64,000 nucleotides of DNA. Source: Nitrospirota bacterium (GTDB lineage: Bacteria; Nitrospirota; Nitrospiria; Nitrospirales; Nitrospiraceae). A model generated the notes under the pieces. The model was not told the DNA's origin. It ran no database searches and was given only the letters and a program-made list of their open reading frames with translations. Made by a program: the position numbers and the translations under genes. The stretch lies in contig JBFMAX010000017.1 in the NCBI GenBank assembly GCA_040755395.1, forward strand, positions 1-64,000, given 5' to 3'. This document shows positions 48,946 to 51,190 of this stretch, piece after piece (within the stretch, counting starts at the first letter, position 1; each line of letters begins with the position of its first letter).

Positions 48946-49351
48946 AGGTGCTCACCTCGACCATTTCTTCGATGTCGCCTCTCGGCCAGATCACCTGCAC
49001 ACGGACTTCGCGCACCAGATCCAAAGGCGTCGGCGAGACGATCCGCTTCCAGCGGTAGCCCGGCGCCCGGTCGCCGGCCTCGGCGGCTGTCTGAACTCCC
49101 GGCGGCAGGCTCTTAAAATCTCCGCTCACTTCGCCCAGCGGGAGAAACCCGGCGAGTTCCGCTTCGAGCAGTTTCTCCTGAGCCAGCAGCGTGGCGGTCG
49201 TCAAATCGCGCGCCCGCAGATGCAGGTTCACGTCCCAGTTGCGCAGTCCCAACAGGACGGGGAGCGCGATGGCCAGGATCGCAAGCGCGATCATGACCTC
49301 CAAGAGCGTGAATCCGTCGTCGTCCCGGCGGCCGGGATCCGATTCGCTCAT
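48920..49351 (-). CDS. gspI: Type II secretion minor pseudopilin GspI
   Basis: A 143-residue pseudopilin. The leader ends DDDG-FTLLEVMIALAILAI, with the conserved Glu at position 5 of the mature chain. A short globular part (TTATLLAQEKLLEAELAG) follows, as in GspI. It overlaps gspH by ATGA and gspJ by 26 bases. Confidence 0.88.
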   Translation of the reverse strand: MSESDPGRRDDDGFTLLEVMIALAILAIALPVLLGLRNWDVNLHLRARDLTTATLLAQEKLLEAELAGFLPLGEVSGDFKSLPPGVQTAAEAGDRAPGYRWKRIVSPTPLDLVREVRVQVIWPRGDIEEMVEVSTYVFRSAVS

Positions 49352-50049
49352 GGCTTCCCTCCGCCGACCGGCGCGGGCCCGGCCGTGAGCCCGACGAGCG
49401 GCTGGAGCAGGATGCGAAGCCGATCCGGAACCGGTTCCAGCGGCTTGTCTTCGGCCGCGCGATCGCTGATCTGCAGCGCGCCCGTCACGGCGTGAATCTT
49501 CACCGTCAGCATGCTCCGGTCTTCATCCGCGAGCGTGATGACTGCAGGCTCCGTCTTGCCCGTCGGCAGCACCTGAATGTACACTCTGCCGGACTCCACC
49601 CTTCCTCTGTTCGGCGCGGTCACGGCGAGAAATCTGATCGTCTCCGGCAGCGTCTCGCGCCGGGCGAGCACGGGATCGACCGGCGTCCGTTCTTCTCCTC
49701 CGTCCAGCATCACCGCCCAGTACGTCTGCTGATCCAGATCGAGATGGAGGCGAAACGGCTTCTGCGCCGACACAGCGGCCGTCTGCAAAGAACGGATCGC
49801 CGCTGCCACGTGCCGGGTCGCCGACGGTAAATGGTTCGCAATGCCGGTGCGGGGAAGGACCAGCGTCAGCAGCATTCCCAACAGGAACAGCACCAGGATC
49901 ATCTCCACGAGCGTGAAGCCTCCCGACGGTGAGGGGTGAGGGATGAGGGATGATGAGCGATGGGTGAACCGGTACCTGTGAGGCGTGAAACGTGAGGCGT
50001 GAAACGTGAACCATTGACGATTGGCGATTGACGAATGACGATTGACCAT
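49348..50049 (-). CDS. gspH: Type II secretion pseudopilin GspH with repeat-encoded leader
   Basis: A pseudopilin with the cleavage site SGG-FTLVEMILVLFLLGML. The soluble domain (RHVAAAIRSLQTAAVSAQKP) is of the GspH/FimT kind. No start codon exists between the repeats and the cleavage site, so the leader must be read through repeat DNA: heptamers 50013-50054 and 14-mers 49978-50005. ATG 50049 would give a 46-residue leader. ATG 50253, inside the MITE-like element, would give 114 residues. Normal leaders have 6-15 residues. Neither ATG has a good ribosome site. Confidence 0.8.
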   Translation of the reverse strand: MVNRHSSIANRQWFTFHASRFTPHRYRFTHRSSSLIPHPSPSGGFTLVEMILVLFLLGMLLTLVLPRTGIANHLPSATRHVAAAIRSLQTAAVSAQKPFRLHLDLDQQTYWAVMLDGGEERTPVDPVLARRETLPETIRFLAVTAPNRGRVESGRVYIQVLPTGKTEPAVITLADEDRSMLTVKIHAVTGALQISDRAAEDKPLEPVPDRLRILLQPLVGLTAGPAPVGGGKP

Positions 50050-50054
50050 TGACG
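49978..50054. repeat. Tandem 14-mers and six heptamers in the gspH leader
   Basis: GTGAGGCGTGAAAC occurs twice in tandem at 49978-50005. Six consecutive heptamers at 50013-50054 read ATTGACG, ATTGGCG, ATTGACG, AATGACG, ATTGACC, ATTGACG. A less regular GGTGAGGGATGA-type tract covers 49928-49970. Heptamer and 14-mer gain or loss changes the reading frame of the leader. Confidence 0.8.
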
Positions 50055-50056
50055 GG

Positions 50057-50269
50057 CTAGCCCGCATTATTCGTGACGGTTCGTCGCGAAATCGCTGAGC
50101 CGCGTCGCGAGACGGGCGCGTGGAGCCGCGAAGGACCGACGCGTACTTGAAACAGTACGTGGAGGGACTGAGCGGCGAGCCCGCCCGCCCCCGACTGAAC
50201 CTATCGGGGGCTTGTCGCAGCAGCGGATCGGCGATTGCAGCAGAAGTGCTCATGAATAATGCGGGCTAG
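50057..50269. mobile_element. MITE-like element with 20-bp terminal inverted repeats
   Basis: Both ends read CTAGCCCGCATTATTC inward (perfect 16 bases, then one mismatch and TGA), giving 19 of 20 matches. The outer CTAG may be a 4-bp target duplication. The 213-bp element encodes no transposase. An internal hairpin (CGTACT ... AGTACG) is present. The right end supplies the TAG stop of gspG, and an ATG in the right TIR opens the longest gspH frame. Confidence 0.78.
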
Positions 50270-51144
50270 TCCTTGTCCAAATTCCAGTTCGTAATATCGG
50301 CATTGACCCCTTCGCCGCCGACTTCGCCATCGGTGCCCAGCGAGATGATTTCGTATTCGCCGCGGGGGCTGGGGCTGAGATACTTATACGGGTTGCCCCA
50401 AGGATCCTCCGGGATCTTCTGCAGGTATCCGCCTAGCTTCCATTTTTTCGGAATCACCCCGACGGTCGGCTTTTCGACCAGGGCCCTGAGCCCCTGATCC
50501 GTCGACGGATAGACGCCGTTGTCCAGTTTGTAGAGTTGCAGGGCGCCCTCGATGTTGCGGATCTGGACCTTCGCCGCGGTCCGCTTGGCCTCATCGGTGC
50601 GGCCCATGATGCGCGGCACCACCAAAGCGGCGAGAATGGCCAAGATGGCCACGACCACCATGATCTCGATGAAAGTAAAGCCGCCTTCCTTTGAACAATG
50701 ATCGAGTGATTGGTGATTCAGTGATTGGTGATTGCGCAATTGTGAGGCAACAGACTGCTTGGATTTTTGACGGCGTTGAGAGGCGATATACGCGTTCAAT
50801 CCTTTGATGAGGTTGAGAACCATGCCTTTGAATCGGTTGCCTTGCGGTTGCTCCATGTATCCGGCGTCAAGGCAAGCGTTAAAGTCATCCAGCCATTCGT
50901 TGGCCGACCCTCGGTGAAGAAGGCAAAAATGTATATTCTTTTGAAAGTGGAATCTGCCGAACCCTTCGGCAATGTTGTTCGTAATCGATAAGGCCGCCAA
51001 CCGCATTTGGTTCGCAAGCACAAACCGTTCCTCGTGAGGTAGAGACCGCCTATAGATCCAAACCTCGCGCCTGATTTCTCTGGCCTGCTTGTACACGTCA
51101 AGTTGTTCGAATGAGGTGATCGTTCCAGTCGACGTCACTGCCAT
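50266..51144 (-). CDS. gspG: Four-helix-bundle (23S-IVP type) protein fused to pseudopilin GspG
   Basis: A 292-residue open frame. Residues 12-120 are a four-helix-bundle domain of the 23S-rRNA-IVP/S23 family (SFEQLDVYKQAREIRREVWI, SITNNIAEGFGRF, RGSANEWLDDF). Residues ~134-150 come from two 15-base repeats (NHQSLNHQSLDH). The GspG part begins at the prepilin site KEGG-FTFIEIMVVVAILAI (cleavage after residue 155) and has the calcium-type C terminus (IPEDPWGNPYKYLSP). GspG is the main pseudopilin, with normally a leader of about 6-10 residues. No ribosome site precedes the few internal TTG/CTG codons. ATG 51144 follows ACGGAGTG. The stop TAG lies in a MITE-like end. Confidence 0.85.
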   Translation of the reverse strand: MAVTSTGTITSFEQLDVYKQAREIRREVWIYRRSLPHEERFVLANQMRLAALSITNNIAEGFGRFHFQKNIHFCLLHRGSANEWLDDFNACLDAGYMEQPQGNRFKGMVLNLIKGLNAYIASQRRQKSKQSVASQLRNHQSLNHQSLDHCSKEGGFTFIEIMVVVAILAILAALVVPRIMGRTDEAKRTAAKVQIRNIEGALQLYKLDNGVYPSTDQGLRALVEKPTVGVIPKKWKLGGYLQKIPEDPWGNPYKYLSPSPRGEYEIISLGTDGEVGGEGVNADITNWNLDKD

Positions 51145-51190
51145 ACCCACTCCGTCCCTAATCACTCAATCACTTAATCCCCAATCACTG
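50704..51190 (-). mobile_element. Four-helix-bundle cassette bounded by inverted AGTGATTGG repeats
   Basis: The IVP-type reading frame is enclosed by related repeats in opposite orientation: AGTGATTGGTGATT units at 50705-50734 (plus) and AGTGATTGGGGATT/AGTGATTGAGTG units at 51158-51190 (minus). The cassette begins three bases after the gspF stop and ends in the gspG leader. This suggests insertion of a discrete unit between gspF and gspG. No transposase is present. Confidence 0.55.

Follow-up and report, generated by a model that had tools for sequence, protein, structure and literature searches.

In the opa genes of Neisseria, near-perfect CTCTT repeats lie in signal-peptide-coding DNA and are phase-varying, with OFF states being common. 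An excess of heptanucleotide repeats is known from several bacteria, such as the GGGAATC type of Xanthomonas and Nostoc (PMC4692102), the TAACTGA repeats of Beggiatoaceae (PMC4679880) and those of Geobacter (PMC2700814), and phase variation was judged unlikely for the Xanthomonas and Nostoc repeats (PMC4692102). The 23S rRNA IVS of Coxiella, which encodes an S23/IVP protein, has a PF05635 open reading frame located between complementary ends that are able to form a stem (PMC4990558).

We compared these systems with the gspG-gspH locus of a Nitrospirota bacterium, contained in a window that comprises the whole stretch of 64,000 nucleotides analyzed. As in opa, the DNA that encodes a cleaved N-terminal leader contains a repeat unit that is out of frame, but the gspH units are imperfect copies and the reading frame is retained. 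The Nitrospirota arrays are like the intergenic heptanucleotide repeats of the three reports cited above in their 7-bp period, their degeneracy, their occurrence at many loci per genome and their unexplained function. They differ by having many unrelated unit sequences and frequent inverted pairs, and in that they appear to have settled repeatedly inside two pseudopilin leaders predicted to be translated. Overall, the repeats are probably degenerate tandem-heptamer elements of a genome-wide Nitrospirota class, which settle in the parts of gspG and gspH that encode the leaders and turn over there, and they are best read as relics of heptamer elements that were domesticated as prepilin leader sequence.

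The original prediction placed six tandem heptamers in the gspH leader, and both their presence and their location were confirmed. TRF called ATTGACG at 50013-50054 with 6.0 copies and 82% matches, no period-7 array of comparable score arose in 20 runs of a Markov null built on the window, and the six heptamers are not a product of chance. On the minus (coding) strand, these imperfect units of the CGTCAAT type read CGTCAAT, GGTCAAT, CGTCATT, CGTCAAT, CGCCAAT and CGTCAAT. They are followed on the same strand by a second heptamer family at 49978-50010 (CGTGAAA/CGTGAGG, or TTTCACG/CCTCACG on the coding strand) and by a third at 49930-49962 (TGAGGGA/GATGAGC). The three consecutive families run from 50054 down to 49930, a 125-nt tract that makes up almost the entire gspH leader and halts 6 nt short of the cleavage-site codons for Gly-Gly (49923-49918) and Phe(+1) (49917-49915).

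The gspH open reading frame (49348-50253, minus strand) has candidate starts at 50253, 50067 and 50049, in-frame ATGs that lie 110, 48 and 42 codons upstream of the cleavage site. As had been claimed, no start is available between the heptamers and the cleavage site (ATG, GTG and TTG are all absent there), every plausible start lies upstream of or within the array, and gain or loss of one unit would shift the gspH frame. The claim that translation must pass through six units holds for ATG 50253, which crosses all of them, but not for ATG 50049-50047, from which only about five are crossed because this codon spans units 1 and 2. ATG 50049-50047 is the probable ancestral gspH start, judging from its position 7 nt past the gspG stop once a MITE-like element is set aside, and from its context (GTCAATGGTC), which is the same in many relatives.

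The other two ATGs (50067 and 50253) both fall inside this MITE-like element, which spans 213 bp at 50057-50269 (no strand assigned), has inverted ends (CTAGCCCGCATTATTC) and contains the gspG stop codon (50268-50266) in its outer CTAG. ATG 50253, supplied by the element, is in frame 12 nt after the gspG stop. The insertion would have come later in the window species, parting gspG from the candidate ancestral gspH start. We recovered 22 distinct same-orientation elements of this family with both ends from the window's own genome, and a CTAG target duplication at the MITE ends is plausible, yet not uniform across copies. When partial copies are counted, the family (L037-L066) has 59 own-genome matches, including two on contig C1 that lie 1.45 kb from each other. 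A search for the MITE in plasmids gave no match.

These features could also mean that gspH is decaying in the window species, with the MITE and the repeats having severed the gene from its ribosome binding site. A distance of 16 nt now separates the AAGGA at the end of gspG from ATG 50253, and one of more than 200 nt separates it from ATG 50049; no other start site is evident. Decay nevertheless seems distinctly unlikely. The frame runs uninterrupted across the MITE and the repeats as far as the stop, even though just four of the 22 MITE copies (the window copy among them) are open in that frame, and both the N_methyl and the GspH domain are intact.

Almost all of the closest matches to GspG in public genomes came from records named Nitrospira, Nitrospiraceae or Nitrospirae/Nitrospirota (G000 alone represented its genus in this search). 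Our comparison set consisted of eighty named loci, and for those that included both the gspG stop and the gspH cleavage site the interval between the two was read. Of 78 junctions, 56 had their first ATG no more than 16 nt from the gspG stop, and in 53 of these 56 Nitrospira junctions the near ATG was in frame and open. Among the heptamer-bearing junctions with a near ATG, 33 of 36 were in frame where 12 would be expected (binomial P about 4e-13 under a random frame with junctions treated as independent, which overstates their independence because the species are related). The in-frame heptamer-bearing junctions form 29 distinct clusters, and the unit sequences vary between species. In L068 and L103, the first near ATG is out of frame and a second near ATG is in frame.

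Changes in repeat number were evident among near-identical relatives. In three loci where the start of mature gspH is 96-100% identical (L085, L086, and L102), junction lengths differ by 0 or 21 nt, with both L085 and L102 differing from L086 by exactly 21 nt, or three units. Thus, heptamer copy number changes, and the best-resolved change preserves the frame. Because length varies across species while the frame stays, we read the heptamers as tolerated genomic repeat elements and not as an on/off switch.

Slippage in the six heptamers had been proposed to turn gspH translation, and hence secretion, on and off. Repeats within a putatively translated leader, with a unit length that is not a multiple of three, would suit such phase variation, and relatives do differ in unit number; arrays of four to five perfect units are present in some of them. 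In one relative (L126), a long array of heptamers is accompanied by a first near ATG that is out of frame and by an in-frame ATG only at 53 nt, possibly reflecting an OFF state or a later start. However, adjacent units are never identical in the six-unit array, which is a poor slippage substrate because its longest perfect period-7 overlap is only 6 matched bases, and which falls short of the long, nearly perfect tandem array of a contingency locus. Such a locus would also show OFF alleles among relatives, whereas 33 of 36 junctions are in frame and two of the three exceptions (L068 and L103) have a second near ATG that is in frame. The clearest recent copy-number change involved three units. 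The accompanying premise that GspH is needed for the T2SS is weak, as mutation of xcpU (GspH), like that of pulH, is reported to leave secretion almost unaffected, and GspH is largely dispensable in the systems tested (PMC6211770). With an imperfect array and near-dispensable GspH homologues, phase variation is highly improbable, and the switching of the secretion system by slippage is unsupported, although slippage at a low rate is conceivable.

In place of a single-gene switch, the data point to a pattern across the Nitrospira family, in which leader segments of a secretion operon would serve as a landing zone for the heptamer class. Across Nitrospira and close relatives, leaders of GspG and GspH repeatedly consist of imperfect 7-base tandem repeats. 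Nitrospira moscoviensis (L067), for instance, carries an array of its own at the gspG-gspH junction. Across 77 loci, 28 period-7 arrays occur in 9.7 kb of gspG-gspH junction compared to 29 in the remaining 574 kb, a density about 57-fold that of the rest of the same loci. Most of the arrays outside the junction (22 of 29) fall in the gspF-gspG or gspG-leader area, at 250-500 nt upstream of the gspG stop. In the window's own genome, an array is present in only 14 of 245 intergenic gaps (based on heuristic gene calls). Own-genome sequence was sampled over 400 kb, and a survey of repeat periods covering 464 kb recovered 25 arrays of period 7, whereas each of the other periods in the range 4-12 yielded 0-4; the window repeats thereby share the genome-wide over-representation of period 7 that defines the heptanucleotide class. 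For many arrays, an inverted partner is located no more than 400 bp away (16 of 36, compared to 1 of 36 in the control). The median distance from the end of a leader array to the downstream cleavage codon is 11 nt, and the leader arrays are biased in orientation, with 42 of 53 gspH leader arrays and 27 of 28 gspG leader arrays being stop-free on the coding strand versus 65 of 144 strands genome-wide. This bias, together with the 53 of 56 near ATGs in frame, supports translation through the repeats, and we infer that the heptamer arrays are translated.

Prepilin peptidase removes prepilin leaders, and so their sequence and length would be nearly free as long as the frame is open. In whichever frame they are read, heptamers in the TCA orientation are mostly without stops, and they could be translated from an ATG just past the gspG stop. 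Units would come and go while selection removes frame-breaking versions, which would leave a gspH leader that is hypervariable yet constitutively in frame. On these grounds, tolerance rather than function would explain the hot spot. However, leader tolerance alone fails to explain the choice of the gspG and gspH junctions because other prepilin leaders rarely attract arrays; also counting against it, these array junctions are among the few gaps of an otherwise tightly packed operon. Positive charge of the heptamer-encoded leaders was rejected as a reason for tolerance, since the other frames are equally positive. A general attraction of arrays to all prepilin leaders was unsupported, with one clear case in about 36 outside gspG and gspH. 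In this case (L244; G000:C28:10383-10451), the heptamer array of another prepilin gene ends 12 nt before the cleavage site.

Inverted arrays or MITEs past the gspG stop could instead form stem-loops, acting as an intercistronic regulatory hairpin that sets the amount of the major pseudopilin GspG relative to that of the minor ones. One quarter of the junctions fold with z < -2, the window junction has a z of -3.5, and inverted pairs and unrelated hairpin elements sit at the same junction in different species. Yet the median junction z is only -0.66 and many species have arrays in a single orientation, without a hairpin, making this explanation unlikely. Folding of the junctions is on average stronger than that of the neighboring coding sequence, but not generally so, and a conserved hairpin as a universal function was rejected. 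A regulatory role is possible in some species, because about a quarter of junctions form strong RNA hairpins. In four loci (L071, L078, L143, and L145), the gspG-gspH junction is occupied by a different element (TGCTGAAAAAGTCCGCCAGC...).

The reading of the repeats as domesticated heptamer elements extends to gspG, whose open reading frame (50266-51165, minus strand) is an in-frame fusion to an upstream 23S_rRNA_IVP domain (PF05635; 50794-51108, minus strand) inserted between gspF and gspG. Heptamer-type arms lie on either side, also on the minus strand: one at 50705-50742, in the stop-free orientation, encodes the gspG leader and is the inverted partner of the other, beside the IVP gene at 51167-51189. 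In the resulting cassette (50705-51189), the IVP frame has no stop and reads through one arm into gspG. Two species, that of the window and that of L137, have this in-frame fusion of an IVP domain with the prepilin leader of gspG. As in the 23S rRNA IVS of Coxiella (PMC4990558), the window cassette has a PF05635 open reading frame between complementary ends; however, it is located between gspF and gspG and not in 23S rRNA, and the ends of such cassettes consist of tandem heptamers that vary in sequence between loci.

Matching inverted heptamer arrays lie on either side of PF05635 genes at 26 of 32 loci in the family and at 13 of 20 loci in other families of the phylum, compared to none of 200 control open reading frames. 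Examples of PF05635 genes between such arrays are L168, L174, L175, L177, L180, L181, L186, L189, L190, and L005. One IVP cassette shows insertion polymorphism, with 488 bp versus 26-68 bp at the equivalent place in relatives. We tentatively suggest that PF05635 genes and their inverted tandem-heptamer arms may constitute an uncharacterized family of insertion elements in Nitrospirota, possibly with a wider distribution. The arms, with or without the gene, might have been repeatedly domesticated as prepilin leader DNA, including an IVP-GspG fusion from which prepilin peptidase would release the IVP domain, and the gspH arrays could be relics of such IVP-type elements. In the literature searched, which covered only a minority of subscription journals, neither the leader hot spot nor the association between IVP and heptamers had been described. 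Degenerate heptamers, so far of unclear origin, are here linked to the inverted arms that flank PF05635 genes and to the insertion polymorphism seen there, a concrete handle on the origin and spread of such repeats. At the site of the G133 IVP cassette, other species (L229-L234) carry an unrelated hairpin-forming sequence of 130-178 nt.
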